Source of the DNA: Bacteroidales bacterium
GTDB lineage: Bacteria; Bacteroidota; Bacteroidia; Bacteroidales; GCA-2748055
Length of the DNA: 17,962 nucleotides
Assembly: GCA_029934875.1 (NCBI GenBank)
Contig: JAOZLK010000019.1
Span: 1-17,962 of the forward strand
Reading direction: 5' to 3'
Under the pieces are notes generated by a model that had not been told where the DNA came from, did not search any database, and worked only from the letters and a program-made list of their open reading frames with translations. The position numbers and the translations under genes were made by a program. Shown here one piece after another: positions 1 through 17,500 of this stretch (positions are counted from its first letter, which is position 1; each line of letters starts with the position of its first letter).

Positions 1-939
1 GGCGTAGTGAACGTTATAGAAGTTCAGTGAAGCAGTGAAATCCGGATCGGCTGGTCCGGCAAAAAAGTTAAGACAACCATCGAAAGACAGGAGTTTGTCG
101 GCCTGTTCAATGACCGGCGCAACAGGAGCAAAAACAAAGACATCATTAAATCCATCCTCCCCGCTGAGTTGCTTCAGCAGATCAACAGGGTCATCGGTGA
201 ACGAGGTATTGACATAATGGAGGTCAATTCCCTTCTGCTTTGCTTTTTCGGGGGAGTAAAGATCTGCAGCCCTGTCGAGCCGTACCTGGTCAATATCAGT
301 CACCACCATCAGCGATGGCTTGCGGTCCTCACGATTCAGCACGTAGTTAATTGCTGCAAGTCCCATTGGCCCTACACCGGCGAGAAGAGCCATTTTTCCG
401 CCATCCACGATCTCCATCTCATGGATGTAACTTCCCGGTTTGATGTGGTAGTTAGCGTGCATGGCGCCAATCACGCAGGAAAAAGGCTCGGCCATCGAGG
501 CCGGGAAATATCCGGGTCCCTTGTAAACCAGAAGGCAGCCCATCTCCATCACTTCTTTGGGAATCACCACATAGGTGGCATCACCTCCAAGGAATCTGTA
601 TGAATAGCCGGGTGCACTCAGAATCCCCACCGGACCATCTTTATAGTTCAGGGCAGGTTGAATGGCAAATTTATCTCCGGCTTTGAATTGTCCTTCCCAT
701 TTAGAACCCACCTCCACAATCTCACCAGCGAACTCATGTCCGATTATGACCGGATTTTCGGCGACATCGTCAGGAATCCTTTTGTGATCTGTTCCCTGAA
801 TGGAGGCTTTGTATGAGGACATACAAAGGCTGTCACTCACTACCTTAGCGAGGATTTCATCTTCCTTAAGTGCCGGTAGCTCGAACTCCTCAACCCTTAA
901 ATCATTCTTTCCATATAATCTGACAGCCCTGGTTTTCAT
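1..939 (-). CDS. Zinc-type MDR alcohol/polyol dehydrogenase, L-sorbose-1-phosphate reductase-like (partial)
   Basis: The frame is open from an ATG at 939 to the left edge (313 codons); the C-terminus lies outside the window. It belongs to the medium-chain dehydrogenase/reductase superfamily, NAD(P)-dependent enzymes that interconvert alcohols and ketones. Visible are a catalytic zinc Cys39 (SDSLCMSS), His68-Glu69 in IIGHEF, an EPFSC segment at 151-155, and the Rossmann motif GVGPMG at 188-193. The four-cysteine structural-zinc lobe usual between the GHE motif and the Rossmann fold is absent; that stretch reads NYKDGPVGILSAPGYSY. From memory the N-terminus resembles proteins annotated as L-sorbose-1-phosphate reductase (SorE type), which reduce L-sorbose 1-phosphate to glucitol 6-phosphate. 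It is the last operon gene seen here, 11 bases after the HAD gene. The MDR family is certain; the substrate is inferred. Confidence 0.85.
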   Translation of the reverse strand, partial: MKTRAVRLYGKNDLRVEEFELPALKEDEILAKVVSDSLCMSSYKASIQGTDHKRIPDDVAENPVIIGHEFAGEIVEVGSKWEGQFKAGDKFAIQPALNYKDGPVGILSAPGYSYRFLGGDATYVVIPKEVMEMGCLLVYKGPGYFPASMAEPFSCVIGAMHANYHIKPGSYIHEMEIVDGGKMALLAGVGPMGLAAINYVLNREDRKPSLMVVTDIDQVRLDRAADLYSPEKAKQKGIDLHYVNTSFTDDPVDLLKQLSGEDGFNDVFVFAPVAPVIEQADKLLSFDGCLNFFAGPADPDFTASLNFYNVHYA

Positions 940-950
940 ATAATACTTTT

Positions 951-1601
951 TTAATCAATAAATTTCAATAATTCCGAAGCTTGGAGAATCATCGGGTAGT
1001 CCCCTTCCACGGGTTCCGTCATCAGCCGTCCATATCCCCAGCTAACACCAACAGGGATCATTCCCGCTGCCCGGGCCGTGAGGATATCATTGTCAGAGTC
1101 TCCCACGAACAGGATGTTGGCCGGATTAATCTCCATCATTTCAGCAATCTCAATGGCCCCGGACGGGTTGGGTTTCCTGGGAACCTCCTCCCGCTGTCCG
1201 AATACCGGTACAAGAGGCCACTCTGAAAGGTAATAGTCAACCACCTTCAGGGTAAGAGCGTGGGGTTTATTGGAGAGGATGGAGATCCTTACACCTTTGC
1301 CAACCAGTTGATCCAACAACTCGGGAACCCCGTCATACACCCTGCTTTTATCGTGCAGGTTGTTTCCATATATCTCTTTAAATTCAGACACGTAGGCCCG
1401 TAGTTGCTCTTTGCTAACCGCTTTGCCATAAGCCCGCTCAATGAATTTCACGGCCCCGTTACCGATCCAATTCAGATAGTATTCTATTCCGTGCTGCGGA
1501 AGACCGTGTCGTTCAAACAACACGTTGGCCGCCCCGGCAATATCCTCGATGGTATGTACCAGGGTTCCGTCCAAATCAAATATGATTCCCTCCACCTTCA
1601 T
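951..1601 (-). CDS. HAD-superfamily phosphatase, phosphoglycolate phosphatase-like
   Basis: This 216-residue protein has the full HAD catalytic set: motif I FDLDGTLV with nucleophile Asp9 and acid/base Asp11, motif II Ser110 (ISILSNKP), motif III Lys143 (PRKPNPSG), and motif IV GDSDND with Asp168 and Asp172. A helical cap of about 70 residues between motifs I and II (roughly 15-85) places it in the Gph/beta-phosphoglucomutase-like subfamily. The family dephosphorylates small phosphorylated metabolites in the cytoplasm with Mg2+. Its position 6 bases after a sorbitol-6-phosphate dehydrogenase-like gene, and just before an MDR dehydrogenase, suggests that it acts on a sugar or polyol phosphate of the same pathway; phosphoglycolate itself is only the family default. 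A mutase activity cannot be excluded by eye. Length and motifs are complete, so it is likely intact. Confidence 0.9.
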   Translation of the reverse strand: MKVEGIIFDLDGTLVHTIEDIAGAANVLFERHGLPQHGIEYYLNWIGNGAVKFIERAYGKAVSKEQLRAYVSEFKEIYGNNLHDKSRVYDGVPELLDQLVGKGVRISILSNKPHALTLKVVDYYLSEWPLVPVFGQREEVPRKPNPSGAIEIAEMMEINPANILFVGDSDNDILTARAAGMIPVGVSWGYGRLMTEPVEGDYPMILQASELLKFID

Positions 1602-1607
1602 GTGCTT

Positions 1608-2789
1608 TTAGCTCAGCATGGTTTGTCCGCCCGTGACCATCACGGCCTGACCGGTTTCATACTCCTGGTCGATGACATATTTGATGGCTTTCACCACATC
1701 CTCCACCCGGCATCCACGGCCAGCGGGGACCAGGGATTCATAATGACGCTTGACATCTTCAATTGTTTTGGCGCTTTGAACCTTCCCTGCTTCCAGGTAC
1801 TGTTTAAAGAGCCCCGTTTCGGGGTGTGACCAAAGGGGTCCCTCGAAATAATTTCCGGGACAAATGGCGTTCACCTTAATCCGATCGGGCATCAGGTCCA
1901 TGGCAAAGGAATGGGTGAGCCCGATCCCTCCGAACTTACTGCCCGAGTAGGCAAAATTTTTCTTACTTCCCTCTACGCCAGACTTTGAGTTAATCTGGAT
2001 AATATCTCCGAAGTAGCTGTCTGAAACAGCATTTTGTGCACGCATTACCGGAACCGCAGCCTTCACACAGTTATAATAACCATTGTAGTTAACCCTGGTC
2101 ACAAAATCGAAAGTCTCAGGATCCATCTCATCCACGCCTCCTACTTTTAGCACACCAGCGTTGCTGATCATCACATCCAATCCGCTGAATTCAAGAACTG
2201 TCTCATAAACCGCTTCTCTTACCGACTCCAGGCTGCTTACATCGGTAAGTACGAAGTGCGACCTGTTGGCTACTGCCTGGGCATTCAACTCTGCGCTTAG
2301 TGCCAACCCGGCATCCGCATTGATATCCATAATCACCACATTAGCACCTTCCGAGAAAAGATTTCTTGCAAGCCCCTCTCCGTATCCCATGGCTCCACCA
2401 GTGATGGCAATTACCTTGTTAAGGAGCGGCTTGTTTATCTGGGGTGAGGCTAGGTTTTCGGACCGAAGCTCTCCCCTGCTGTCCAGGCGGACCGTGGCCA
2501 GCTTCTGCTCGATCCTGGTCCTATCGCTTGATAAGCCCAGCAGTCCCAGACCCTCGATAAAGATGTACTCACCAATATCCTGCTTTGAATGCTCAACATC
2601 CTTCAAGACCTGGTCCATTCCTCCTTTAAATACAGATACACTTCTTCCAAGGCGAACCGTAATCTTTTCCGGGTCAGTCTCTGAAAGCTGATCGATGGGA
2701 ACAAAAATCCCGCATTTAAGGCTGTTGAAAGACATGATCATCCTCAGGGCAGGCACCAGTTTTAAAATGCTGTTCTTTTTTGCTTCCAT
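1608..2789 (-). CDS. SDR oxidoreductase, sorbitol-6-phosphate 2-dehydrogenase-like, with N-terminal extension
   Basis: This is a 393-residue protein. Residues about 124-393 form a classical short-chain dehydrogenase: cofactor loop TGGAMGYG at 130-137, Asp155 (VVIMDIN) at the end of beta-2 suggesting NAD(H), NAG at 210-212, a catalytic Ser in INSKSG (266-271), and Tyr281-x3-Lys285. The stretch INSKSG..GSKKN..YSGSKFGGIGLT and the end TGQAVMVTGGQ closely resemble, from memory, E. coli SrlD, which oxidises D-glucitol 6-phosphate to fructose 6-phosphate. SrlD is about 259 residues, so the first ~120 residues are extra. Their segment YIFIEGLGLLGLSSDRTRIE (75-94) recalls the connector in class II aldolase-SDR fusions of the rhamnulose-1-phosphate aldolase type. 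The start lies 2 bases after the PHP stop, implying translational coupling. The SDR assignment is firm; the substrate is probable. Confidence 0.87.
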   Translation of the reverse strand: MEAKKNSILKLVPALRMIMSFNSLKCGIFVPIDQLSETDPEKITVRLGRSVSVFKGGMDQVLKDVEHSKQDIGEYIFIEGLGLLGLSSDRTRIEQKLATVRLDSRGELRSENLASPQINKPLLNKVIAITGGAMGYGEGLARNLFSEGANVVIMDINADAGLALSAELNAQAVANRSHFVLTDVSSLESVREAVYETVLEFSGLDVMISNAGVLKVGGVDEMDPETFDFVTRVNYNGYYNCVKAAVPVMRAQNAVSDSYFGDIIQINSKSGVEGSKKNFAYSGSKFGGIGLTHSFAMDLMPDRIKVNAICPGNYFEGPLWSHPETGLFKQYLEAGKVQSAKTIEDVKRHYESLVPAGRGCRVEDVVKAIKYVIDQEYETGQAVMVTGGQTMLS

Positions 2790-2791
2790 AA

Positions 2792-4024
2792 CTAGTTATC
2801 TCTAAGTGACGGATTATAGTTTCTGAAATAGTGGTAAAAGATGGCCTTCCCTAATTGCTCCATATCGTCTCGTGATTCCTGCTTGTATCCGACTCCTTCC
2901 CTGGCAACGTGGTACTGATGCGCTGCCACATAAGCGGCACCATTAAATGAGATCTCTTTGAGATCTTCATCCAGGGCAACATTATTTTTACAACTCACTT
3001 CTATGGGAATCATCTCAGATGTATTGTGCTCGGTACCAAAAGAGATCACAAATCCATGCTCGTAGAAATAACTTGCGTACTCTTTCAGTTTCCCGATCTG
3101 GTTCCTCAAAGGAATAAATTCGATGGAGTTAAAGCCCCGGCTCTGAAGCGACTTCAGCAACTGTTCCTTTCCATCTTCAAATTCAGTCATCTGAACACCG
3201 GCACCATCAAGTAACAAGGGATAGGTGGGAATCCCCCCTGCATCCCTGATGATCTCAAGGATCTCTTTCAGGGGAAGGAAGGCTTTTTCATCTTCGGGAA
3301 CAAAGGCAGGAGCTCCTGATTTTAGCAATTTCGACCTCAATTCGTCTTCGGTCCCTGCAGTATCGGACCTTTTTTTTGATGAAGTCACACCTCCGAAAAT
3401 CTTTTGCAAGATCTCATCATACTCCTCATCATTGGCTGCATGTTCATTCAGCTTTAAGCGCAGCATCTTGGCCACGTGCCGTTCACGCAGAAGATTCACA
3501 GCCAATGACTCCATGATCTCATCTTCCGAAATATGAAAACCCACACCCTGTTTTTTCAACCACGAGTTCAGCAAATCAATCATTTGAGAGACCTGCTTGT
3601 TGCTCTCTGCCACAACAAGTTGTAGTTGCTGCGCCTTCTCTTCGGATATGATATCAGGGAAAGCAAGTCCTTTGCCACTGATGTAGGTCCGGCCAGGATT
3701 GCCCGGATCATTGACCCTGATCCCGGCATCCTGGTCTGCTTTGCTGATCCCTACTAATTCAATGTTTAAAAGGGGAAAAAGGCCGTGATCAATACATTTT
3801 TCCATGAATTCGCCATAGCCATCAGTTACATAGAAATCGTTAATTCCCAGAACCCTGACTTCCTCGGCCACAGAAACCCTGACAGCTTCGGTCACACTTT
3901 CAAAAGCGCTGAAGGAATAGGGTGTATGAATGTGATTGTTGACTTTCATAGGGAATCCACTGCCCTCCTCTTTGTAGGCTTCAAGCAGTATGTCCCTTGC
4001 TGGGAATTGTTCTAAGAAACTCAT
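2792..4024 (-). CDS. PHP-fold (polymerase and histidinol phosphatase) protein with atypical metal site
   Basis: This is a 410-residue cytoplasmic protein. It opens like a PHP domain with HIHTPYSF (His31, His33), followed by GINDFYVTDG (60-69), NIEL with Glu89, RERHVAKML (His183), DAGGIPTYPLL (261-271) and SFGTEHNT (329-335). The order matches the TrpH/YciV type of PHP phosphoesterase. Several ligands differ, however: the usual TDH is NDF (62-64), the usual AHP is TYP (267-269), and the usual GSDxH is GTEHN (330-334). A stretch at about 115-240, much of it probably helical, separates the two halves. PHP proteins hydrolyse phosphoesters with two or three metal ions; with these changes the activity could differ or be lost. 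An AAGGAG Shine-Dalgarno at 4028-4033 lies close to the start. The place in the operon suggests a hydrolytic or lyase step. Fold likely, function unknown. Confidence 0.75.
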   Translation of the reverse strand: MSFLEQFPARDILLEAYKEEGSGFPMKVNNHIHTPYSFSAFESVTEAVRVSVAEEVRVLGINDFYVTDGYGEFMEKCIDHGLFPLLNIELVGISKADQDAGIRVNDPGNPGRTYISGKGLAFPDIISEEKAQQLQLVVAESNKQVSQMIDLLNSWLKKQGVGFHISEDEIMESLAVNLLRERHVAKMLRLKLNEHAANDEEYDEILQKIFGGVTSSKKRSDTAGTEDELRSKLLKSGAPAFVPEDEKAFLPLKEILEIIRDAGGIPTYPLLLDGAGVQMTEFEDGKEQLLKSLQSRGFNSIEFIPLRNQIGKLKEYASYFYEHGFVISFGTEHNTSEMIPIEVSCKNNVALDEDLKEISFNGAAYVAAHQYHVAREGVGYKQESRDDMEQLGKAIFYHYFRNYNPSLRDN

Positions 4025-4044: not shown

Positions 4045-6513
4045 TTAAACGCCCATCCTGCTTCTGCGAAGCTGTTCACCGGCCGTATAGTTATTGGTAG
4101 TCTGGTGGCCCTTCAAGGGAAGTATTTTCTCATGAATTGCATCAAGCATCCAGCTCGCCTGCGGGAAGAAAAAGTCTTCCAGTTCATAAGCCGGTATGAT
4201 CCAGTTGCGTGAACCAACTACTACGGGAGGAGCATCCAGGTCATCGAAACCAAGTTCAGTAATATTCTGAGCCATGTCCTTCAGGTAGGAACCTCTTTCA
4301 CTGGCATCACTGACCAGTAAGATGCGGCCTGTTTTTTTCAATGACTTCAACACCAGGTCGTAGTTAAAGGGCACCAGCGAACGGGCATCGATGATCTCGG
4401 CCGACATCCCGTATTTTTCCTCCAACTCACCGGCTGCCTCCAGGGCCCTGTAAAGCGTGGCTCCTATGGTCAGGATGGTAATGTCTTTTCCTTCACGTTT
4501 CACGTCGGGTTCTCCAAAGGGAATCTCGTAGTATTCTTCAGGGACACCTTCTTTATGAAACTCTTCTCCAATACCATAGAGGCGTTGACTTTCAAAGTAG
4601 ATCACGGGATCGGTGCCCTGCAGGGCAGTGTTCATCAATCCTTTGGCATCGTAGGGAGTAGCCGGGAAGACCACTTTGATACCGGGAATGTGTGCCACCA
4701 GGGAGGACCAGTCCTGGGAATGCTGTGCCCCGTATTTTGACCCCACAGATACACGAAGTACAACTGGCATTTTAATCAGGTTGCCACTCATGGCCTGCCA
4801 CTTGGGAAGCTGATTGAAAACCTCATCACCCGAGCGGCCCAGGAAGTCACAGTACATGATCTCCGGGATTACACGACCGCCACACATGCCATAACCAATG
4901 GCTGTTCCCACGATGGCTCCTTCAGAAATGGGAGAGTTGAACAGGCGGTGGTACGGAAGGGCTTCAGTAAGTCCGCGGTAGACCGCGAAGGCCCCTCCCC
5001 AGTCACGGTTCTCCTCCCCATACGCGACCAGGGTGGAATCCTTATAAAAACGGTGAGCCACGGCTTCAAAAATACCGTCGCGGAACTGGTATTGCTTCAT
5101 ACCCGAATGGGCTTTGCCATTCTCATCATAGGCATAGCGTTCTTTCCTGGCAATCTGCTTGACCCGTGGATTTTCCTCCAGGGTCATCAAAGTATCCAGT
5201 GGACCCTCTTCCATGGCATCCACCGATTCGTTTGAGAACATCATCTCCCCAATCAACTCAGGGTAAGAGACCAGGTCCATTCGTGGTGATAACTCATCAT
5301 CAATGGAAAGCTTGAAAGATCCCATCAAAAGGTCATCGGTTTCTGTCTTGATCTCATCCAGAGTGGACTGATCAGCAATCCCTGAAGATATGAGTTCAAG
5401 TCCGTATGTGACAATTGAATCCACTGACTCCCATGCTTCGATTTCTTCTTTTGACCTGTAGGAGGATGAATCTGAAGGAGAGTGTCCACTGAATCTATAG
5501 GTAAGCACATCCAGGAAGACCGGACCACGTTTCTCTGCAAGTATCTGCATCTTTCTTTCATAGGCATCAATCACGGCCAGGGGGTTGTATCCATCCACTC
5601 GTTCGGTATGCATGTTTTCACGATTCACGGCAGCACCCACACGGGCAGCAATGGAATAGCCCATTGTCTCCCCACAAGTTTGTCCGCCCATCCCGTACTG
5701 GTTGTTCATGATGTTGAAGATGATGGGCAATCCGCCTTTCATGTCTCCTTCCCAAAGCTCCTGGTACTGGTCCATGGCAGAAAAAGTCATTCCTTCCCAG
5801 ACCGGACCGCAACCCAATGAAGCATCCCCGATATTGGCAACCACGATCCCCGGCTTCCTGTTCACCTTTTTATAGAGCGCTGCTCCCACTGCTATATCTC
5901 CTGAGCCACCTACAATTGCATTGTTGGGATAAATTCCGAATGGTGTAAAGAAAGCATGCATGGAACCACCCAGTCCTTTGTTAATTCCCGTTTCACGGGC
6001 AAATATTTCTGCCAGGGTACCATAGATAAGGAATTTGTGAGCCAGTGATTTCATGTCGCCTTTATGTCCCTTCTCCACGATGGAAAGGATCCGGCCATCA
6101 AAGAAATCCTTCATAATATTATAGAGGGTATCGTCATCCAGTTTCTGAATGGCTGACAGGCCCTTGGCCAGAATCTCACCATGAGAACGGTGCGAGCCGA
6201 AAATATAGTCGTCTATATCAAGCTTGTATGCCATCCCAACTGCTGCGGCTTCCTGTCCGATGGAGAGGTGAGCCGGACCGGGATGAGAATAAGGGATTCC
6301 TTTGTATTCATCCTTGGTTTTGATCAGGTTCAACATGGTTTCAAATTCCCTGATGATCAGCATATCCCGATAGATCCTCACCAGGTCGTCCTTCGAAAAG
6401 CGGCTTAGCTCTTCCTTCACACTAAGGTTATAGGTATTAACCGGAATGGATCCCAGGTCAAGGCTAGCCGATTTTCTAACATTCGCCGGATTGATAAATT
6501 GTTTTTTTGGCAT
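4045..6513 (-). CDS. Thiamine-diphosphate-dependent 2-oxoacid/acetoin dehydrogenase E1, fused alpha and beta subunits
   Basis: This 822-residue fusion has E1-alpha at about 40-400 and E1-beta at about 475-800, joined by a linker. The alpha part shows HRSHGEILAKG (108-118), GINKGLGGSMHAFF (176-189), the ThDP/Mg motif starting GDASLGCGP (229-237) and closing at Asn270-Asn271, and the loop RFSGHSPSD (340-348). The beta part shows SEGAIVGTAIG with probable catalytic Glu531, EIMYCDF (551-557), and AQHSQDWSS with His598. E1 decarboxylates a 2-oxo acid, or cleaves an acyloin such as acetoin, and acylates the E2 lipoyl group. About 35 extra residues sit at roughly 120-155, where other E1-alpha chains have a short loop. 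The gene follows E2 after 50 bases. Fused E1 chains are known, but the location inside a sugar-phosphate-type operon suggests an unusual substrate. The complex type is certain; the substrate is not determinable. Confidence 0.93.
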   Translation of the reverse strand: MPKKQFINPANVRKSASLDLGSIPVNTYNLSVKEELSRFSKDDLVRIYRDMLIIREFETMLNLIKTKDEYKGIPYSHPGPAHLSIGQEAAAVGMAYKLDIDDYIFGSHRSHGEILAKGLSAIQKLDDDTLYNIMKDFFDGRILSIVEKGHKGDMKSLAHKFLIYGTLAEIFARETGINKGLGGSMHAFFTPFGIYPNNAIVGGSGDIAVGAALYKKVNRKPGIVVANIGDASLGCGPVWEGMTFSAMDQYQELWEGDMKGGLPIIFNIMNNQYGMGGQTCGETMGYSIAARVGAAVNRENMHTERVDGYNPLAVIDAYERKMQILAEKRGPVFLDVLTYRFSGHSPSDSSSYRSKEEIEAWESVDSIVTYGLELISSGIADQSTLDEIKTETDDLLMGSFKLSIDDELSPRMDLVSYPELIGEMMFSNESVDAMEEGPLDTLMTLEENPRVKQIARKERYAYDENGKAHSGMKQYQFRDGIFEAVAHRFYKDSTLVAYGEENRDWGGAFAVYRGLTEALPYHRLFNSPISEGAIVGTAIGYGMCGGRVIPEIMYCDFLGRSGDEVFNQLPKWQAMSGNLIKMPVVLRVSVGSKYGAQHSQDWSSLVAHIPGIKVVFPATPYDAKGLMNTALQGTDPVIYFESQRLYGIGEEFHKEGVPEEYYEIPFGEPDVKREGKDITILTIGATLYRALEAAGELEEKYGMSAEIIDARSLVPFNYDLVLKSLKKTGRILLVSDASERGSYLKDMAQNITELGFDDLDAPPVVVGSRNWIIPAYELEDFFFPQASWMLDAIHEKILPLKGHQTTNNYTAGEQLRRSRMGV

Positions 6514-6519
6514 TTTATT

Positions 6520-6546
6520 AGTCTGTAAAGTTTATAAAGTCTGTAA
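6520..6546. repeat. 9-bp direct repeat between the E2 and E1 genes
   Basis: AGTCTGTAA occurs at 6520-6528 and again at 6538-6546 in the 50-base gap between the E2 stop and the E1 start. The copies are 18 bases apart. The gap is the widest in the operon and may hold a translation or processing signal for E1, but no clear promoter element was seen. Confidence 0.4.
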
Positions 6547-6563
6547 TGTCGAAAGAAAAAATA

Positions 6564-7943
6564 TTATAATAAGTCGCTTGAGAGCTGTTCTACCTGGTTC
6601 TTGATCTCGGCCAGGAACTGTGTAGCCGGTCCGCCGTCAATTGCCCTGTGATCGTAAGTGAGAGAAAGTCCGATAAATGGCTGGAACCCGAATGAGCCAT
6701 CAGCCAGGGTCGTGGGTCTTTGTACAATGGTATTAACCCCCAGGATGGCTACCTGCGGCAGGTTGATTACCGGGGTAAACATCTCCACCCCATAATTGCC
6801 CAGGTTGGAGATGGTAAATGTGGCTGCTTCCGGAGCCAGCAAATCGGGTGAAACATTCCCGCCACGGGCGGCCTCCACCACTCCTTTCAGCTGGGATGAT
6901 AAGCCGGGAAGGGAAAGGTCATCGGCATTCAGGAGGGCAGGAACAAGCAATCCGCGTTCGGTATCGACTGCAAGTCCCATATTTACCTTGTTGAAGAGCC
7001 TGATCTTCCCATCAATGAACTGGGCGTTGGCTTCGGGGTGGATTTTAAGTGCCCTGATCACGGCATAAACCACCATGTCATTCAGGGTGATATTATAGGA
7101 ATAGCCCTCCTTGACCCTACTTTTTACTTCATTTCTTAGCTGAAGCATCTTCGATGCATTGGCTCCCATATGGTGGGTCAGCTGGGCTGAATTTTGAAGA
7201 GAGTTGTACATGGCATTTGCAATGATTTTCCTGACATTAGAGAGTGGAATATCTGTATAATCGCCAGTAGCAACAATTGCGGCCGGGCTTTTGACATTTG
7301 CACCTGCAACTGATGATGATTCCACCAGGTCTTTGGAGCTAATCTTTCCAAAGGGAGTTTTCCCCCTTGGTGGAACTGCAAGCCCCTCACCTTCAAGTTT
7401 CTTCTGAGCAAGCGGGGTCAGGCGCTTTCCCGATTTAATTTCTTCGAGGACATCCCTTTCAATGATCCTGCCACCGGGTCCGCTTCCCGCGATACCTTCA
7501 AGTATGACCCGCTTTTCCGCAGCCAGCTTCCGGGCCCTGGGAGAAACTCCAACGCTTCCAATTCCGGAAGCTGCAAGTACCTGATCGGCTTCCACCTGAA
7601 CTACGGATACATCCTCTTCCGCCTGATCAGACGATTCGGGGAGCACCTTTTCAGTTTCACTGTTCCCTGCAGCACCCTCGGGACGAAACTCATCCACCGG
7701 CTCCCCCGCAGCGCCAATAACGGCTACATTGACCAGAACAGGAACTTCATCCCCCCCTTCGTAAAAACAGGCAAGGAGAACACCATCTGCCGGGGCCTCC
7801 TCTTCAAAAGAAGCCTTGTCCGTTTCATAGGCAAAAATCAAGTCTCCCGCTGAAACTTTATCTCCAATATTCTTATACCATTCCGTGAGTATGCAACTCT
7901 CAACGGATTGCCCTTGTCTAGGCATTTTAATCGCAGTAGCCAT
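6564..7943 (-). CDS. Dihydrolipoyl acyltransferase (E2) with one lipoyl and two tandem subunit-binding domains
   Basis: This 459-residue protein has E2 domains in canonical order. The lipoyl domain (1-78) carries the lipoylation site Lys43 in YETDKASFEEEAP. A Glu/Ala-rich linker follows (about 79-130). A peripheral subunit-binding domain at 133-167 reads VSPRARKLAAEK and GSGPGGRIIERDV. A second, shorter one at 175-208 reads LTPLAQKKLEGEG and GKTPFGKISSKDL. The catalytic acyltransferase domain (about 230-459) has the active-site motif DHRAIDGG (431-438) with His432 and Asp436. E2 takes the acyl group from E1 and passes it to CoA, forming the core of the multienzyme complex. It is the first gene of the leftward operon, 115 bases after a predicted -7 element. 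No E3 dihydrolipoyl dehydrogenase gene is in the window. The E2 role is certain; whether the acyl group is acetyl is unknown. Confidence 0.94.
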   Translation of the reverse strand: MATAIKMPRQGQSVESCILTEWYKNIGDKVSAGDLIFAYETDKASFEEEAPADGVLLACFYEGGDEVPVLVNVAVIGAAGEPVDEFRPEGAAGNSETEKVLPESSDQAEEDVSVVQVEADQVLAASGIGSVGVSPRARKLAAEKRVILEGIAGSGPGGRIIERDVLEEIKSGKRLTPLAQKKLEGEGLAVPPRGKTPFGKISSKDLVESSSVAGANVKSPAAIVATGDYTDIPLSNVRKIIANAMYNSLQNSAQLTHHMGANASKMLQLRNEVKSRVKEGYSYNITLNDMVVYAVIRALKIHPEANAQFIDGKIRLFNKVNMGLAVDTERGLLVPALLNADDLSLPGLSSQLKGVVEAARGGNVSPDLLAPEAATFTISNLGNYGVEMFTPVINLPQVAILGVNTIVQRPTTLADGSFGFQPFIGLSLTYDHRAIDGGPATQFLAEIKNQVEQLSSDLL

Positions 7944-8003: not shown

Positions 8004-8047
8004 CTTTTACCACACTATTACCACGCTCTTACAACACTCTTACTTGT
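8004..8047. repeat. Four imperfect 11-bp tandem repeats near the operon transcription start
   Basis: Four contiguous units are seen: CTTTTACCACA (8004-8014), CTATTACCACG (8015-8025), CTCTTACAACA (8026-8036) and CTCTTACTTGT (8037-8047). All share CTnTTAC. The last unit runs into the inverted repeat at 8043-8056. A period of 11 bases is about one helical turn, so bound subunits would line up on one DNA face. The array falls just downstream of the predicted start site of the E2 operon, inside its leader. A protein-binding array is inferred; chance AT-rich repetition is the alternative. Confidence 0.55.
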
Positions 8048-8056
8048 CTATACAAG
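8043..8056. promoter_or_regulatory. Candidate operator, copy 1 (E2 operon side)
   Basis: CTTGTCTATACAAG is a 5-bp perfect inverted repeat (CTTGT/ACAAG) with a 4-base centre. It contains GTnTAnAC, the pattern known for HutC-type GntR repressors. It sits immediately downstream of the leftward -7 element and would cover the predicted start site, a typical repressor position. A near-identical copy is at 8379-8392. No regulator gene is in the window to pair with it. Confidence 0.6.
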
Positions 8057-8058
8057 CG

Positions 8059-8089
8059 CAAAGATAGTAATATTTCTTCGAATTACAAT
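8059..8089 (-). promoter_or_regulatory. Promoter of the E2-E1-PHP-SDR-HAD-MDR operon
   Basis: Read leftwards, TATCTTTG (8066-8059) matches the Bacteroidota sigma-ABfr -7 consensus TAnnTTTG. ATTG (8089-8086), 19 bases upstream, fits the -33 TTG element. Transcription would start near 8051-8053, giving a leader of about 110 bases before the E2 ATG at 7943. This is the only promoter-like match I found for the six genes, and the short gaps between them fit one transcript. Confidence 0.65.
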
Positions 8090-8378
8090 ATCCTCCTACC
8101 CTTCCTTATGCTACTCATCTTCAGTTTGTTATGAATCATTAAGTGAAATCTGAAGAAATCTTCATCTTTTCTTAAAAAAACAGGAAGAAAGTATTATTGG
8201 ATATTCCCCTGCCTGAGAGTAAACCATTGAATGAAACTTACCCCATTAATCAGAGCATCTTTTTCAGCCGCAGCAGACCAAGCAAAAAGCCAAAGGAAAT
8301 TCACACGAGTTCCGGATTTTGGAAAATCGCTGCCCTGGTGGATATAAGAGAAAGACCTGATTATTACAAAAAATTCAT

Positions 8379-8392
8379 CTTGTCATTACAAG
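8379..8392. promoter_or_regulatory. Candidate operator, copy 2 (susC side)
   Basis: CTTGTCATTACAAG has the same 5-bp arms and 4-base spacing as the site at 8043-8056, and 12 of 14 bases are identical. It lies 16 bases upstream of the TATATTTG element for susC1, covering the -33 region, where a bound protein would block or replace RNA polymerase contacts. The two site centres are 336 bases apart, close to a whole number of helical turns at 10.5 bp per turn. Confidence 0.6.
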
Positions 8393-8408: not shown

Positions 8409-8416
8409 TATATTTG
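8409..8416 (+). promoter_or_regulatory. Probable -7 element of the susC1 promoter
   Basis: TATATTTG is a full match to TAnnTTTG. No good TTG is found at the usual 19-21 base distance; that region is occupied by the candidate operator, so this may be a weak or activator-dependent promoter. The start would be near 8423, leaving a leader of about 180 bases before susC1. Confidence 0.5.
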
Positions 8417-8601: not shown

Positions 8602-11600
8602 ATGGATGTATTCAAACTTAAAATGAAAAATCCACTAATCTTGCTTGTATTGATTGTCATTCAAATGAATTTTTCAATTGCATTTTCTCAATCCTTGCAG
8701 GACTATGAAATCACAGGAACTATTTCAGATAACAGTGGCCCTCTGATTGGTGTATCTGTAAAAATCAAAGACTCTAATACCGGAACCATCACCGATGTAA
8801 ATGGATTTTACGCTATCAAGGTAAGTCCTGAAGCTACAACACTGGTATTTTCTTTTGTGGGTATGAAAACCACGGAAGTTGCTATTGAAGAAAGAACCCA
8901 GGTTGATGTGACCATGGAGTTCGATGCATATGGACTGGACGAACTGGTTGTTGTAGGTTATGGCACTCAAAAGAAAAAGAGCCTGACAGGAGCCATTTCA
9001 GTCATCGATGATGATGCTATTACAACTACAACCGCAACAAGTCTGGCTCAAAAACTTCAAGGGAAAGTTGCCGGTTTAAATATTCGCCAGACTACGGGAG
9101 AGCCGGGAATGTATTCAAACTCAATAAATATTCGGGGTTTTGGAGAACCTTTATATGTTATCGATGGCATTGTCAGAGGTGGATCTGCAGATTTTCAAAG
9201 GCTTAACGCAGATGATATTGAAAGTATATCTGTGCTAAAGGATGCATCTGCTGCAATTTACGGATTAAATGCAGCCAACGGTGTGATCATTGTGACTACG
9301 AAAAAAGGAGTAGAAGGTAAAGCGAAATTCAGATTTAGCAGTATTCTTGGATGGTCTTCTCCTACCGATATACCGGAAATGGCCAATGCTTTCGAATATT
9401 ATACGATGCGTAATGATGCTGAAGTGAATGGAAGCCGGGCACCATTTATTACACAGGAAGAACTTGCACTCTGGGAGGCAGGAGGTCCGGGATATGAAAG
9501 CACCGATTGGTCCGATGAAACGCTGCTAAGTTCCTCTTTCCGGCAGGAGTATAGCTTATCTGCCGAAGGAGGCTCAGATAAAGTTACTTATTACATTAAT
9601 ATGGGGCTTATTGATGATGGAGGGCTTCTTAGAAGCCAGGATATTTACTACCGGAAATTCAATTTCAGATCCAATGTTTCAGCAAAACTTACTGATAATA
9701 TCACTGCAACTGTAAATATTGCGGGATTTGTAGATGAGAGAGGAAGCCCGGCTGATGGTATTTTTAATATATGGAGGGGTACAGTCTCCAGTCTTCCCAA
9801 CAAAGCGGTTTATGCCAATGACAACACCAAGTACCTGCACCGTGTACAAGATGGACAGGCCATGAACCCAGTGGCTATTGGCCAGAGTGATTTAGCTGGT
9901 TATACTATAAATGAGGATAAGGTATTTCAGACTTCTTTTGATTTAGCATGGGAAGTCCCCTTTGTTAAGGGTCTTGTAATCAAGGGGGTTGCCGCATACG
10001 ACCAGAGATTTTATCAGGGTAAAGGTGTAAGGACAGATTATGAGTTGTATGATTACAGTGTAGATGATGACACTTATCTGTCTACTGCTTTTAATACACC
10101 GGCATCCATTAATAATGCTTATAACAACTCGCATTACCTGACACTACAGGCTCATGCGATCTACAAAACCACTCTTGGAGATAATCACAACCTTGGAGCC
10201 ACACTGGTTTATGAACAAAGGGACCAGGCGGGGAGACATGCTGGAATTCTAAAGTATTATGATTTTTTCACCAATGCCCAGATAGATCAGGCCGGTGAAA
10301 CGAATGCAGCCTCCAGTGGAAATGAATGGCAAGTCAGGAATATGTCATATCTGGGACGGCTAAATTATGATTACATGGGTAAATATCTTCTGGAATTTGC
10401 AGCAAGATATGATGGCACCTATCGTTATCATCCGGATCGCAGATGGGGATTTTTCCCTGTTGTTACCGGTGGATGGAGAATCTCCGATGAAAATTTCATT
10501 AAAGACAACATCTCATGGATATCTAACCTGAAAATCAGAGGTTCTTATGGAATTATTGGTCAGGATGCAGGTGCACCTTTCCAGTATGTCCAGGCTTTCT
10601 CCACTTCCGGAGGCGGAACATATGAATTTACAGAAGGAACTCTAACCAATGGCGCCGCCGCCCCTGTGATCGTGAACGAAGAACTTACCTGGATGGAATC
10701 CAACATCAAGGATATTGGTATCGATATGGGGTTCTTCAACAACCAACTTACCATTACAGCCGATGTATACCAGAGGGACCGAACCGGGCTGCTTGCCTAT
10801 AGAAATGTCACGCTGCCCAATACCTTTGGAGGATCTTTACCGCAGGAAAATCTGAACAGCGACCGTGTCAGGGGAATGGAGTTCTCTTTTACACACAACA
10901 ACACCATTGGCCAATTCAGATACAGCATAACTGGTAACGTCAATATTGCCCGTACAATGAATGTGTATGTTGAGTCAGCTCCTTTTCAAAGCAGTTGGGC
11001 AGAATACAGAGCAGGTAGTACACGTGCTGCAGGGTCTGTTGAGTCAATGGCTCCCAACCGTTGGAATGACATTGTCTGGACCTACAACAGACTTGGGCAA
11101 TTTCAAACCGAAGAAGAGATCCTAATGGCACCCATTCAGAATGGAGCGCTTGGTAACCTGAGAGAAATTCCCGGAGACTTCAAATATGAAGATGTGAACG
11201 GTGATGGGGTTATCGATGGCAACGATATGGTTCCCAATGCATTTAATGAAAGTCCGAAAACCAATTATGGATTAACATTTGATGCAGGCTGGAAAGGTTT
11301 TGATTTTAGTTTTCTGCTACAAGGAGCTGCTAACTTCACTGCCAGGTACTCTCATGCCTATACAACCATGTTCTGGCAGGAAGGTAATACACCTGCTTAT
11401 TTTATGGACAGATGGCATTTGTCTGACCCATATGATCCGGAGAGTGAGTGGATAGAGGGTGAATGGCCAGCAACGCGTATTGGTGTAAATTTAGGTATGT
11501 TATATGCCGAAAGTGATGCATGGAGGCGATCGGCATCTTATCTTCGTATCAAGAATATTGAGTTAGGATACTCAATCAATAATGCAGCTCTTAATAAAAT

Positions 11601-11757
11601 CGGCCTTCGAAATGTCAGGGCGTTTATCAACATTAACAACGTCTACACATTTGCTGATCCTTTTATTAAACCTTTTGATCCGGAATCGATTTCAGGAATT
11701 GGCTGGACTTATCCGATCATGAGGACATTTAACCTGGGTATCAATATAGATTTTTAA
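8602..11757 (+). CDS. SusC/RagA-type TonB-dependent outer-membrane transporter (copy 1)
   Basis: This 1051-residue protein has a signal peptide of about 30 residues ending ...IAFSQ, then a carboxypeptidase-regulatory-like domain (about 35-108, from EITGTISDNSGPLIGVSVKI). The SusC marker LDELVVVGYGTQ (112-123) follows, then a plug domain (about 125-236; RGFGEPLYVIDGI, NADDIESISVLKDASAAIYG, NAANGVIIVTTKKG), and a long beta-barrel ending in the aromatic TFNLGINIDF. Such proteins import oligosaccharides or other ligands across the outer membrane, powered by TonB and capped by a SusD lipoprotein. There is no N-terminal STN domain, so direct signalling to an anti-sigma factor is unlikely. A DVNGDGVIDGND loop resembles the calcium-binding loops common in the family. 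The shared MDxFKxKMKxP N-terminus of both copies supports the ATG at 8602, although Met8 would give a more typical signal peptide. The ligand is unknown. Confidence 0.96.
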   Translation: MDVFKLKMKNPLILLVLIVIQMNFSIAFSQSLQDYEITGTISDNSGPLIGVSVKIKDSNTGTITDVNGFYAIKVSPEATTLVFSFVGMKTTEVAIEERTQVDVTMEFDAYGLDELVVVGYGTQKKKSLTGAISVIDDDAITTTTATSLAQKLQGKVAGLNIRQTTGEPGMYSNSINIRGFGEPLYVIDGIVRGGSADFQRLNADDIESISVLKDASAAIYGLNAANGVIIVTTKKGVEGKAKFRFSSILGWSSPTDIPEMANAFEYYTMRNDAEVNGSRAPFITQEELALWEAGGPGYESTDWSDETLLSSSFRQEYSLSAEGGSDKVTYYINMGLIDDGGLLRSQDIYYRKFNFRSNVSAKLTDNITATVNIAGFVDERGSPADGIFNIWRGTVSSLPNKAVYANDNTKYLHRVQDGQAMNPVAIGQSDLAGYTINEDKVFQTSFDLAWEVPFVKGLVIKGVAAYDQRFYQGKGVRTDYELYDYSVDDDTYLSTAFNTPASINNAYNNSHYLTLQAHAIYKTTLGDNHNLGATLVYEQRDQAGRHAGILKYYDFFTNAQIDQAGETNAASSGNEWQVRNMSYLGRLNYDYMGKYLLEFAARYDGTYRYHPDRRWGFFPVVTGGWRISDENFIKDNISWISNLKIRGSYGIIGQDAGAPFQYVQAFSTSGGGTYEFTEGTLTNGAAAPVIVNEELTWMESNIKDIGIDMGFFNNQLTITADVYQRDRTGLLAYRNVTLPNTFGGSLPQENLNSDRVRGMEFSFTHNNTIGQFRYSITGNVNIARTMNVYVESAPFQSSWAEYRAGSTRAAGSVESMAPNRWNDIVWTYNRLGQFQTEEEILMAPIQNGALGNLREIPGDFKYEDVNGDGVIDGNDMVPNAFNESPKTNYGLTFDAGWKGFDFSFLLQGAANFTARYSHAYTTMFWQEGNTPAYFMDRWHLSDPYDPESEWIEGEWPATRIGVNLGMLYAESDAWRRSASYLRIKNIELGYSINNAALNKIGLRNVRAFININNVYTFADPFIKPFDPESISGIGWTYPIMRTFNLGINIDF

Positions 11758-11768
11758 ATATACCAGAT

Positions 11769-13691
11769 ATGAAACTATATAGAAATATAATATTAATTGC
11801 TCTATTGGGCTTGATTGCCTGCAACGATGACTTTTTGAATCTGGAGCCAACTGACAAAGTAAGTGCAGATGCATTATTCTCCAGCCCTGAAGGTGTAAAG
11901 GTTTTTATGGCAGGCTTATACTATCAGATGCCTCTTGAAGATTTTAACTGGACACCTGATCATGGTTTCAGTTGGAACACCGGCGATGCCAACAATGCAG
12001 GGATGTTCCCCATTGTCATTACTGATGATGGCATCGGATCTGAACATCAGTCCATTACTTCTCGTGGTGGATACGACTTCGCCTGGTGGGAACGGGGGTA
12101 CAAACTGAACAGAGACATCAATCTTCTGTTTCAGGTGATCCCTGAACTGGATGTTGAACAGAAGGAAAAGGATGCCCTGTATGGGGAAGCTTCTTTTATG
12201 CGTGCCTATGTATACTTTGAATTGGCAAAGTTATATGGTGGCGTTCCCATTATTACAACAATTGCTCCTGTAGATGCCACTGAAGAAGAGCTTAATGTTC
12301 CCCGAAGTACTGAAAAGGAGACCTGGGATTTTGTATTGGCCACATGTGATACTGCGGCCATGTTGCTTGATGCAGGAGACGGAAGCAGAAGAAGAGGTAC
12401 AAAGTATGTTTCACTGGCCTTAAAATCCAGGGCCGCTTTGCATGCTGCTTCAGTAGCTAAATATTGGGATCAGTCTCCATTATCAGGAGATGCTGTTGAT
12501 GCAGCTTTGGTGGGAATGGATCCATCTGTGGCTGCAGGATATTATGCTCAATGTATCAGTGCATCGGAGGAGATTATGAATGATGGTCCATTTTCTCTTT
12601 TTCACCCATCACCTGCAAGTGTAGAAGAGGCGACTGAGAATTACAGGCAAATGTTTGAAAATCCCAATCGCGCGACGGGTGAAGTAATATTTATAAGAGG
12701 ATATACGCTTCAGGGAGTGGATCTGGGCAGCAACCAGGATAACTGGGGAAACCCGGCTCAGACTGCTGGTGCCTGGCCCCACCCGGGACGCTTTTGTCCG
12801 ACTTTGGATTTGGCGGACATCTATGAAAATTACTCGGATCCGGGTCAGAGTGCACCTATCATTACAACAGTCGATGGTGATGTTGAGAATTACGACGGCT
12901 ATGATCCCAGTAGAACCTATTTAGAATTTGATCATCCCAGCGATATTTTTGCTGATAAGGATGCGCGCCTGGGCGCTACAGTTTTACTTCCTGGTTCCAT
13001 ATGGAAAGATGTGGAAATTGTGATTCAGGGGGCATATATTCTACCCGATGGTTCGCCGATAGGTCATATTGAACTTAATAATGCACCTGTAGTCGGAAGC
13101 CCTGCTAATTTTGAAGTGGATGGGAGTACTTATTATCTCTACGGTGGCTCAACTCCAAAATTGTATTCCGGATTTAGCTCAGTTGGAGGTAACATGACAA
13201 GAACCGGATTTGGTTTTAGAAAGTTTCTCGATTCAGAATATGTTCCTATTCTCGGATGGAATTATTCAACAACCGACTGGATAGATTTCCGTTATGCTGA
13301 AATACTACTAAACTATGCTGAGGCCGTTGTGGAAAGCGGAACTGGTGATGCTACTGTAGCAGCACAAGGGATAAATGCTCTGCGGCACCGGGCAGCACAT
13401 CAGGGAGATGTTCCCCTGACGCTGGAAAATGTACTTCGTGAAAGAAGAGTAGAAATGGCTTTTGAGAATAAGAGATATTGGGACCTTATCAGGAGAAGGG
13501 AATATCATACAGCGTTTTTCGATACCTACAGGCACGCCCTGGTACCGGTACATGACTTGAGAAGTATGAAGTATATTTTTGTAAGAAGAGACTGTCATAA
13601 TACGCAACCCATGACTTTTGATGATGCCTGGTACTATAAAACCATACCGGGTACAGGAGCAAATGGTTTAACCCAGAATCCTCAGTATTAA
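11769..13691 (+). CDS. SusD/RagB-type surface lipoprotein (copy 1)
   Basis: This 640-residue lipoprotein begins 11 bases after susC1. The signal peptide ends in the lipobox LIAC with lipidated Cys18, followed by NDDFLNLEP; acidic residues just after the Cys fit a Bacteroidota surface-export signal. The N-terminal SusD-like region has WWERGYKLNRDINLL and GEASFMRAYVYFELAKLYGGVPIIT, and the C-terminal SusD/RagB region has RERRVEMAFENKRYWDLIRR (about 556-575) and ends in NPQY. SusD proteins form the ligand-binding lid over SusC on the cell surface. At 640 residues it is somewhat longer than the common 500-600. The operon partner is susC1; the next gene follows after 18 bases. Family certain, ligand unknown. 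Confidence 0.96.
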   Translation: MKLYRNIILIALLGLIACNDDFLNLEPTDKVSADALFSSPEGVKVFMAGLYYQMPLEDFNWTPDHGFSWNTGDANNAGMFPIVITDDGIGSEHQSITSRGGYDFAWWERGYKLNRDINLLFQVIPELDVEQKEKDALYGEASFMRAYVYFELAKLYGGVPIITTIAPVDATEEELNVPRSTEKETWDFVLATCDTAAMLLDAGDGSRRRGTKYVSLALKSRAALHAASVAKYWDQSPLSGDAVDAALVGMDPSVAAGYYAQCISASEEIMNDGPFSLFHPSPASVEEATENYRQMFENPNRATGEVIFIRGYTLQGVDLGSNQDNWGNPAQTAGAWPHPGRFCPTLDLADIYENYSDPGQSAPIITTVDGDVENYDGYDPSRTYLEFDHPSDIFADKDARLGATVLLPGSIWKDVEIVIQGAYILPDGSPIGHIELNNAPVVGSPANFEVDGSTYYLYGGSTPKLYSGFSSVGGNMTRTGFGFRKFLDSEYVPILGWNYSTTDWIDFRYAEILLNYAEAVVESGTGDATVAAQGINALRHRAAHQGDVPLTLENVLRERRVEMAFENKRYWDLIRRREYHTAFFDTYRHALVPVHDLRSMKYIFVRRDCHNTQPMTFDDAWYYKTIPGTGANGLTQNPQY

Positions 13692-13709: not shown

Positions 13710-14390
13710 ATGAAAGCAATTAAATTATATATGATAGCATTACTCGGTTTACTGCTTAGTTCCTGTGAACTGGATAATTATGACGGACCTGATGCTAAAT
13801 TTTTTGGCAGCATCATTGACACTGGTACAAATGAAGCAATTCCACAGGATCTCATTCAGGGATCTGTGATTGATTACACGGAGCATGGCTTTGAAAATCC
13901 TCAGATTCAACAGCTTAGATTCAAAGCGGATGGTACTTTCCGTAATAACCTGATGTTTTCAGGGACCTACGATGTTCAGGCTGTGCGTGGTAATTTCATG
14001 GAGGTTCCGATAGAAACCATTGAAATAAATGGTGATACGGAGCATAATTTTATGACACTGCCCTACATACGGGTAACTGAAGTAAGTATGGCTCTGAATG
14101 CAGACAGCAGCAGGCTGATAGCAACCTTCAAACTTGAGCAGCTCGTTCCGGAACCGGTAAAGTCCATGATGCTGGTAGCAGATTTGAATCCTTCGGTTGG
14201 AGTGGGAATTCGTTCGGCAACCCAGGGAGCTAACGTGGGTCGTGTTGTTGATCCTGATGAAGTATTTACAATAGAGCTGAAAACTAAATCATTGGAAAAG
14301 GGAAAGGAATATTTCTTCAGGGTATGTGCTTTAATTGATGTTCCTGAAGCCAAGTATAACTTTTGTACAGCTGTAAAAGTAGGCATCTAA
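13710..14390 (+). CDS. DUF3823-type lipoprotein in the SusE position
   Basis: This 226-residue lipoprotein has the signal sequence MKAIKLYMIALLGLLLSSC with Cys19 as the lipidation site and ELDNYDGPDAKFFGSI immediately after. The mature N-terminal part (about 25-120) contains GSIIDTGTNEAI and LRFKADGTFRNNLMFSGTYDVQ and looks like the immunoglobulin-like DUF3823 domain. A second beta-rich domain (about 121-226) ends ...YNFCTAVKVGI. Proteins of this kind lie just after susD in many polysaccharide utilisation loci and are thought to be accessory surface glycan-binding proteins, like SusE/SusF. It is co-directional with susC1-susD1 and followed by a strong hairpin, so it is probably the last gene of the first unit. 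There are no catalytic motifs. The family call rests on remembered sequence patterns. Confidence 0.8.
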   Translation: MKAIKLYMIALLGLLLSSCELDNYDGPDAKFFGSIIDTGTNEAIPQDLIQGSVIDYTEHGFENPQIQQLRFKADGTFRNNLMFSGTYDVQAVRGNFMEVPIETIEINGDTEHNFMTLPYIRVTEVSMALNADSSRLIATFKLEQLVPEPVKSMMLVADLNPSVGVGIRSATQGANVGRVVDPDEVFTIELKTKSLEKGKEYFFRVCALIDVPEAKYNFCTAVKVGI

Positions 14391-14502: not shown

Positions 14503-17500
14503 ATGGATGCATTCAAATCCAAAATGAAATCTCCACTGATTTTTCTTGTGCTAATTTTGGCTCAAATGAGTTTTTCCTTTGCTTATTCTCAAGCTATACA
14601 AGACTATGAAATTACAGGGACCATTTCAGATAACAGTGGTCCTCTGATTGGTGTATCTGTTAAAGTCAAAGACTCCAATACCGGGACAATCACTGATGCA
14701 AATGGAATGTATTCAATTATGATTGAACCTGAAGCTACAACACTGGTATTTTCTTTCGTAGGTATGAAAACTGTTGAAGTTGACATTGAGGAACATACCC
14801 TTATTGATTTGACGATGGAAGTTGATGCCTATGGACTTGAGGAGGTGATCGCCGTGGGATATGGTTCTCAAAAGAAGAAGAGCCTGACCGGAGCCATATC
14901 AAGTATTGATGACGAGGACATTCAAACGACAACAGCAACAAGTCTTGCCCAAAAGCTTTCCGGGAAGGTTTCCGGATTAAATATTCGTCAGAATACGGGG
15001 GAACCCGGAGCTTTTTCCAACTCGATAAATATCCGGGGCTTTGGAGAACCCTTATACGTGATAGACGGAATCGTCAGAGGAGGATCTGCAGATTTTCAAA
15101 GGCTTAATGCAGATGATATTGAAAGCATTTCTGTATTGAAAGATGCCTCATCTGCAATTTACGGATTAAATGCTGCCAACGGGGTGATTATCGTAAGCAC
15201 GAAAAAAGGGGGACAGGGCAAAACGAAATTTGTATTCAGCAGCACGATTGGTTTCTCCTCCCCCACTGATATTCCTGAGCTTGCAAATGCAGCTCAATAT
15301 TATGAAATGCGCAATGATGCCAATATAAATGTCGGAATGGAACCCTTCATCTCACAGGAAGAACTTGAAAAATGGAAAGCAGGAGGACCTGGTTATGAAA
15401 GCACCAACTGGGCTGATGAGACTTTTCTAAATCGCTCGATTCGTCATGAGCATAGTTTGTCAGCCGAAGGGGGTACAGAAAAGGTATCCTATTATTTAAA
15501 TTTCGGCATGGTGAAAGACGGGGGAATTCTGCAGAGTGGTGATATACATTACAACAAGTTTAATTTCAGATCAAACGTGTCAGCAAAACTGACAGAGAAC
15601 ATTACAGCAAACATAAATATTTCAGGTTTCACAGATAAGAGAGAATCTCCGGTTGACGGGATTTTTTCAATATGGAGAGGAACCGTTTCCATCCTGCCCA
15701 TTCATTCGGTTTATGCCAATGATAATACCAATTACCTTCACAGGGTTCAGGACGGGCAAGCCATGAATCCCGTGGCCATTGCACAGAGCGATTTGACAGG
15801 ATATACCATCAATGAAGACAGGGTGTTTCAGACTTCCTTTGACCTGAGCTATAAAGTACCCTTTGTTAAGGGGCTGGAATTCAAAGCAGTGGCTGCCTAT
15901 GACCCGAGGTTTCATCAGAGTAAAGGAGTAAGTACAGATTACGAGTTATTTGATTATAAAGTTGAAGATGATACCTACATGCCCACTGCATTTAATGAAC
16001 CGGCTTCAATTTATAACCTTTACAACAACTCCAGTTTGCTCACGCTTCAGGCCATGGGGATTTATAAAACAAGCATCGCAGAAAAGCATCATATCGGAGC
16101 CACGCTGGTATACGAACAAAGGGAAGAATCCGGAAGGTATGCAGGAATCAACAAATACTATGAATTCTTTACAAATGCTCAGATTGACCAGGCCGGAGAA
16201 GAGAATGCTGCTTCAAATGGGAATGAATGGCAAATAAGGAACATGTCTTATCTCGGACGATTGAATTATGATTACCTGGGCAGATACCTTATTGAATTTG
16301 CAGCAAGGTATGATGGTTCATACCGCTACCACCCGGATCGCAGATGGGGGTTCTTTCCAGTGGTTTCAGGTGGATGGAGAATTTCGGAGGAGAACTTCAT
16401 AAAAGATAACATTTCCTGGGTAGCCAATATAAAGATCAGGGCTTCGTATGGCATTATTGGTCAGGATGCGGGAGCTCCCTTCCAGTACGTGCAGGCTTTT
16501 TCAACAACAGGCGGGGATGTCTGGGAATTTACAGAGGGAAAGTATACAAACGGAGCAGCTTTCCCGACTATTGTAAACGATGAACTTACATGGATGGAAT
16601 CCACGATCAGTGACATAGGTGTCGATCTGGGATTTTTCAACAACAAACTCTCTTTTGTTGCCGATGTATACCAAAGAGACCGGACCGGCTTGCTCGCTTA
16701 TCGGAATGTGACTGTTCCAAATACATTTGGGGGTTCATTACCCCAGGAAAATCTGAATAGTGACAGGGTCAGAGGCCTTGAGTTTTCTTTTAATCACAGC
16801 AACCAGGTAGGTCAATTCACTTATAGTCTCTCCGGAAACGTAAATTTCGCCCGGACGATGAACGTGTATGTTGAATCGACTCCTTTTCAAAGCAGCTGGG
16901 AAGAGTACAGGGCAGGAAGCTCCAACCGGTGGAATGATATCGTGTGGATGTACAACAGGATTGGACAATTCCAATCGGAAGAGGATGTCACCTATGCACC
17001 TGTACAAAATGGAGATCTTGGCAACCAAAGGGAACTTCCAGGGGATTTCAAGTATGAAGACTTAAATGGTGATGGAGTAATCGATGGAAATGATGCAAGT
17101 CCTCAGGCATATAATGAAAATCCAAAAACATACTTTGGATTAAACATTAACGGAGCCTGGAAAGGATTTGATCTCAATCTTCTCTTTCAGGGTGCAGCAA
17201 ATTATACGGCAAGATATACGCATGCGTACTCAACCATGTTCTGGGACGAAGGTAATTTACCGGCCTATTTCATGGACAGATGGCACCATCAAGATCCTTA
17301 TAATCCTGATAGTGAATGGGTATCCGGAGAATGGCCTGCTTCACGCATCGTAGAGAATTCAGGCATGCTATACGCGGAAAGTGACGCGTGGAGAAGAGAT
17401 GCTTCTTACGTGCGTTTTAAGAATCTAGAACTGGGGTATACCTTCAATAAAACAAAAATTCAACAAATAGGATTTAATTATATACGGGTTTACATCAGTA

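Follow-up and report, generated by a model that had tools for sequence, protein, structure and literature searches.

What ties together the two divergent gene groups in this stretch of Bacteroidales DNA is the question raised by a pair of near-identical inverted repeats, one at each of two divergent promoters. The window (the whole stretch that was analysed, 17,962 nucleotides) is contig C139 in full, one of 749 contigs of a draft assembly that amounts to 4.77 Mb and is 88% complete. Left of the intergenic region, an operon on the minus strand begins behind copy 1 of the repeat with E2, a dihydrolipoamide acyltransferase (6564..7943; PF00198, PF00364, PF02817), and continues with a fused E1 alpha/beta 2-oxoacid dehydrogenase (4045..6513; PF00676, PF02779, PF02780), a PHP-domain protein (2792..4024; PF02811 slightly under its cut-off, assigned with synteny), a short-chain dehydrogenase resembling the RhaW half of RhaEW-type aldolase/dehydrogenases (1608..2789), a HAD phosphatase (951..1601; PF13419) and a zinc-dependent alcohol dehydrogenase (1..939; PF08240), which is truncated at the contig end. 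Between E2 and E1 (6513-6564) there is no E3 gene. Right of the intergenic region, on the plus strand and behind copy 2, follow susC1 for a TonB-linked outer-membrane receptor (8602..11757; TIGR04056, 829.7 bits), susD1 (11769..13691; PF07980, PF14322), a DUF3823 gene that is probably part of the susC1-susD1 operon (13710..14390; PF12866, PF18003), susC2 (14503-17634) and the start of susD2. The two susC genes are tandem copies with the DUF3823 gene between them, and their proteins are 75% identical. Links from outer-membrane uptake to a cytoplasmic pathway are seldom legible in DNA, and the original prediction had seen one here, namely a common regulator acting through both repeats. We consider it probable that the two repeats are operators of one repressor of the GntR/HutC type, which would join uptake by SusC1 to breakdown by the E2 operon.

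Copy 1 (8043..8056) reads CTTGTCTATACAAG, or CTTGTATAGACAAG towards E2, and is a candidate operator that lies across the start site inferred for the E2-E1 operon, while copy 2 (8379..8392), also a candidate, reads CTTGTCATTACAAG and lies over the -33 region of susC1. Both 14-bp repeats sit where they had been predicted, with both 5-bp arms in common and 12 of 14 bases identical, and the window indeed holds no third exact copy. The exact pattern CTTGTN4ACAAG occurs four times in the whole genome, two of them in the window (reversed control pattern: three). When the 658-bp intergenic region was resampled with a first-order Markov model in 20,000 trials, at least one exact copy arose in 0.04% of them and two copies in 0 of 20,000; the pair is unlikely to have come about by chance. 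The fourth exact genome copy (C7:19760) has a different geometry and no pathway link that we could see, and is probably a chance occurrence. In relatives the conserved unit extends over 16 bp, ACTTGTAWWTACAAGT (consensus of 57 exact sites among the best 80 loci listed); in either copy of the window, the outer conserved base survives on a single side. GTnTAnAC is the core of HutC-type operators. This core, which the original prediction had noted in copy 1, is present there but missing from copy 2, and its occurrence in 19 of the 57 exact relatives among the best 80 loci listed does not support it as a general feature of the operator. As for the literature, no title describing a CTTGTN4ACAAG operator was found among the titles and abstract openings listed.

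Comparison with relatives speaks for copy 1. At 1e-60, a match to E1 is present in 25 of the 28 family genomes, and 19 E2 upstream regions of the family, the window's own counted in, are readable; within 120 bp of E2, an exact palindrome is found in 14 and one with a single mismatch in the remaining 5. All 14 bases of copy 1 recur at the E2 locus of six genomes (G002, G006, G010, G014, G017, G020), and in three genomes beyond these 19 loci (G002, G003 and G009) an exact copy, located on a different contig, separates GntR from E2. A wider set came from a scan of genome contigs with the E1 alignment and consists of the best 80 loci listed, which are from Bacteroidales or Bacteroidota (including Draconibacterium, Maribellus, Carboxylicivirga, Sunxiuqinia and Labilibacter), count two draft genomes labelled Chlorobiota among them, and overlap partly with the genomes of the family search. 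Since 12 of these 80 lack the E2 start and 5 have less than 150 bp before E2, 63 are readable. Among them the best site before E2 is exact in 57, has one mismatch in 5 and two in 1 (in resampled controls, an exact site turned up in 0.05% and one with a single mismatch in 1%), and at least two sites with no more than two mismatches occur in 55 of the 63 (controls: 1.1%). A divergent GntR gene adjoins E2 in 62 of these 63 loci from the best 80 listed, at a median distance of 210 bp; at the 63rd (L159), where none was seen, merely 326 bp are available upstream of E2. A SusC1-like gene upstream of E2 was found in none of the 47 loci with more than 5 kb of upstream sequence among the best 80 listed. 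The layout of the window, one copy per divergent promoter, thus recurs in relatives with GntR in the place of susC1. Hence the arms, whose lack of conservation in orthologous intergenic regions would have spoken against the original prediction, are clearly conserved for copy 1, which is, to judge from these comparisons, an old and conserved operator. Of the intergenic region as a whole, 30-37 bp around copy 1 do align across orthologous loci, together with one 27-bp match elsewhere (L235), but the remainder does not.

With a stricter form of the palindrome, 15 of 17 further genomes gave matches, each of the 15 having one that by position lies at the GntR/E2 locus, and 10 of them having no other. 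The six off-locus matches (one each in G431, G419, G423 and G422, two in G426) are about what chance would give, and their neighbours, judged by eye, share no common pathway. Because the stricter palindrome is mostly confined to the GntR/E2 locus, the regulator looks local in those genomes. One off-locus site, on contig C204 of G426, is found between genes for a SusD-type protein and a sulfatase.

The candidate regulator carries a GntR domain (PF00392) and a UTRA domain (PF07702) and is of the HutC type, both in G008 and in the window's own genome. Its NCBIfam matches all stay below the cut-offs, so that it is no named member of these families. In the window's genome the gene resides on contig C591 (8439-9155), where it follows a mannitol-dehydrogenase-like gene and, at a greater distance, a sugar porter; it encodes the sole UTRA protein found in that genome. 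The expectation that a GntR gene lies near this locus is therefore borne out for the relatives, where it adjoins E2, but not for the source genome, where susC1 occupies its usual place. The C591 protein is divergent, being 73% identical to that of G008, and in a tree it forms the first, long branch (0.3) in a clade made up of the genus plus G020 from another genus (100/99). The C591 gene may thus be the former neighbour of E2, moved to a new place, or a close relative of it that was kept when the neighbour was lost. Its DNA-binding recognition helix is conserved in the readable part, with a run of N following in the helix region. A glycyl-radical enzyme fragment, convergent to the GntR gene, sits at the end of the same contig (L136, 9179-9748). 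Contigs C139, C259 and C591 share no end overlap of 15-150 bases, and a draft of 88% completeness may hide another regulator, just as the E2/susC1 junction may be misassembled. With a regulator adjoining its operator in nearly all of the readable relatives and also present on C591, the predicted common regulator of the GntR/HutC type held up, and sequence comparison lends good support to the view that both palindromes in the window are under its control.

Promoters were placed with the consensus quoted in a passage of PMC7366714. For the E2 operon this gives a -7 box, TATCTTTG (8059..8066, minus strand), 2 bp before copy 1 when read towards E2, and for susC1 a box, TATATTTG (8409..8416, plus strand), 16 bp after the end of copy 2, so that with start sites derived from these boxes the predicted positions of copy 1 over the E2 start and of copy 2 over the susC1 -33 region agree. 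In the family, 11 of 19 E2 loci, the window included, have an exact TANNTTTG box whose first base precedes the site by 10 (offset -10), and two more have it there with one base off. Among the best 80 loci listed, an exact -7 box stands at +24 relative to the E2-side site in 21 of 62 and at -10 in 6 of 62.

Copy 2 has to be judged by other means. The genus yielded no near orthologue of susC1, and in the closest relatives from the family (G023 and G027, 50-51% identical) the stretch fetched contains no site with fewer than two mismatches, which leaves copy 2 without orthologous support. Searching for the operator followed by 10-18 bases and TANNTTTG, with C or T permitted at one arm position, we obtained seven matches in the 28 family genomes and one with the control pattern; three of the seven fall in the window's genome (at susC1, C259:11712 and C591:6124), and the four from the other 27 are all at the GntR/E2 locus. 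With exact arms and 14-17 bases before the box there were four matches in 393 genomes of the order (control pattern: five), two of them in the window's genome (susC1 and C259) and the other two in G051 and G369; the three sites of this genome were already known when the two spacing ranges were chosen. In all three of these sites the box begins 28-30 bp past the site start. The C259 site precedes the gene of a secreted protein whose pectate-lyase domain is of the rhamnogalacturonase/epimerase type, on a contig that also has a GH92 gene, and the C591 site, which has one mismatch, precedes the gene row that ends in GntR. Secreted proteins encoded on C591 (L136, 3028-7069) and on C259 (L051, 11796-14853) have, by eye, a similar N-terminal stretch, NGDFE...WRF.EV, and this may reflect a common glycan target. 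In G013, the genome with the nearest E1 (92%), a GH92 gene is preceded by an exact copy, which begins 30 bases ahead of TATATTTA in a layout like that at susC1, and by a copy with one mismatch 107 bases further upstream (L283 = G013:C392, 15237-15357); no GntR match at 1e-20 was obtained in that genome, which is 97% complete. Upstream of susC2, every operator copy with fewer than two mismatches is missing. Taken together, rarity and promoter geometry support copy 2 as a putative operator of susC1.

One could still argue that copy 1 is a genuine GntR operator while copy 2 is a chance palindrome of no effect on susC1, the more so as the closest susC1 relatives do without it and the bare palindrome is no commoner than its control (59 against 127 occurrences, summed over 28 family genomes). 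Scatter of the motif over random positions, the other finding that would have spoken against the original prediction, does apply to this bare palindrome, but not once a -7 box has to follow it, and to our minds a chance origin of copy 2 is improbable: this intergenic stretch would contain an exact copy by chance with a probability of about 0.0004, and the spacing to the -7 box has just four matches in 393 genomes, two of them here, albeit with a range set afterwards. Even less likely is a scenario in which both copies serve the E2 operon, with copy 2 as an auxiliary site in a 336-bp loop and susC1 controlled otherwise. A distance of 32.0 turns at 10.5 bp and the presence of at least two copies in most of the readable relatives would suit such a loop; set against this, 52 of 54 copy-to-copy spacings in relatives from the best 80 listed are 75-169 bp, and copy 2 covers what we take for the -33 region of susC1. 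Looping over integral turns, as originally proposed, fails on the same 54 spacings, which are scattered in phase and include two outliers of 257 and 542, and we rejected DNA looping for this reason, i.e. helical phasing is not kept across relatives.

Sites placed upstream of or over a -33 region are used by activators, too. The box spacing of 28-30 bp common to the susC1, C259 and C591 sites would accordingly suit a regulator that activates at susC1 and represses at the E2 operon, yet we deem such a dual role as improbable as a fortuitous copy 2: the HutC-type NagR, in what PMC4333415 describes of it, blocks transcription, and on the E2 side of relatives the -7 box directly follows the site, or else the site falls on the transcription start. 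Finally, the repeats might act in RNA, as small hairpins of the 5' leader with 5-bp arms and a 4-base loop, for which the closeness of copy 1 to the inferred transcript start could be quoted. However, wherever the E2-side site lies upstream of the -7 box (the 21 of 62 loci among the best 80 listed mentioned above) it would not be transcribed from that box, copy 2 is upstream of its own box, and no Rfam family reached threshold in the window; on position and the lack of an Rfam match we rejected the hairpin, and we give it next to no credence.

The reading that we prefer, repression through both copies, would work as follows. One dimeric GntR/HutC-type repressor with a UTRA domain would bind copies 1 and 2, thereby blocking RNA polymerase at the E2 start site and over the susC1 -33 region, until a metabolite of the sugar pathway, perhaps derived from a deoxyhexose, releases it. 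Glycan uptake and cytoplasmic breakdown would then be switched on jointly, and with them the secreted pectate-lyase-fold protein and the operon that holds the repressor gene. In relatives, the repressor gene is divergent from an operon of the order E2-E1-PHP-(RhaEW-like)-HAD-ADH, usually with one operator copy per promoter. It is conceivable, at somewhat less than even chances, that a repressor which looks local in the relatives analysed has become a multi-locus regulator here, its gene having made way for a transporter now under its control, with operators arising at the SusC/D operon, at the secreted pectate-lyase-fold protein and at the mannitol-dehydrogenase-like operon in which the repressor gene lies. 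If repression through both copies is correct, a regulator and a 16-bp operator can be assigned to a dehydrogenase operon conserved in Prolixibacteraceae, Marinilabiliaceae and their kin, and for one genome a SusC/D system co-run with that operon will have been predicted from DNA alone; relatives and window would also form a before/after pair for a local repressor acquiring distant targets. Should the multi-locus reading be true as well, we would be looking at regulon growth in progress, coupling the capture of surface glycans to a 2-oxoacid dehydrogenase branch.

A link of this kind has a predicted precedent. According to passages of PMC3878776, the GntR-family regulator ManR (BT2103) of B. 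thetaiotaomicron is predicted to govern the breakdown of mannose along with a SusC/SusD operon that includes alpha-mannosidases; a like prediction exists for AraR and arabinose. The likeness to ManR, drawn from its described role, consists in a GntR-family regulator that combines cytoplasmic sugar catabolism with SusC/SusD and extracellular glycosidases (PMC3878776, same passages); the differences are the mannose pathway and other target genes. What we report here is the same operator sequence at a SusC/D operon and a catabolic operon, seen in sequence and geometry. So GntR control linking SusC/D uptake to catabolism has its predicted precedent in ManR, from which the operon and operator described here differ. 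NagR/YvoA of Bacillus subtilis and DasR of Streptomyces resemble our regulator in having GntR DNA-binding and UTRA domains and palindromic operators at uptake and catabolic promoters, as described in parts of PMC4333415, but their operator sequence and pathway are others and they are distant in sequence, matches to the structures (2wv0, 4u0v, 9i0v) reaching E values of 1.3e-10 and 1e-9. A different comparison concerns the enzymes of the operon. In Escherichia coli, 2-oxoacid dehydrogenase genes are repressed by the GntR-family protein PdhR, which is FadR-type rather than UTRA-type. PdhR shares with our case the pairing of a GntR-family regulator with such genes, unlike it that pairing comes without a surface uptake system, and its structure (PDB 5kvr) matches our GntR protein in the DNA-binding part only.

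As to the substrate, a metabolite derived from a deoxyhexose of the rhamnose or fucose type is our lead for the ligand. The operons of many relatives include a RhaEW-like aldolase/dehydrogenase, and in some, rhamnose genes are nearby, as at the RhaEW rhamnose loci treated in PMC3870299; these loci differ in that the operon here has a 2-oxoacid dehydrogenase complex, and the word GntR does not occur in the main text of that paper. Among the best 80 loci listed, a RhaEW-like protein is matched in 53 (in part at its full length of ~650 aa), E3 (lipoamide dehydrogenase) in 43 and a rhaA-like gene in 8. Rhamnose as a settled substrate, or a rhamnose regulon, was rejected because the exact operator is found at just one of 18 rhaT-type loci (G012), and there the exact -7 box is missing. 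The off-locus site of G431, which is the same genome as G012, precedes rhaT. In Draconibacterium orientale, rhaT-like, rhaM, rhaA and class II aldolase-like genes adjoin GntR, as does, by eye, a kinase gene. The window's own short-chain dehydrogenase corresponds to the dehydrogenase half of the RhaEW-like bifunctional enzyme together with a short N-terminal piece of it.
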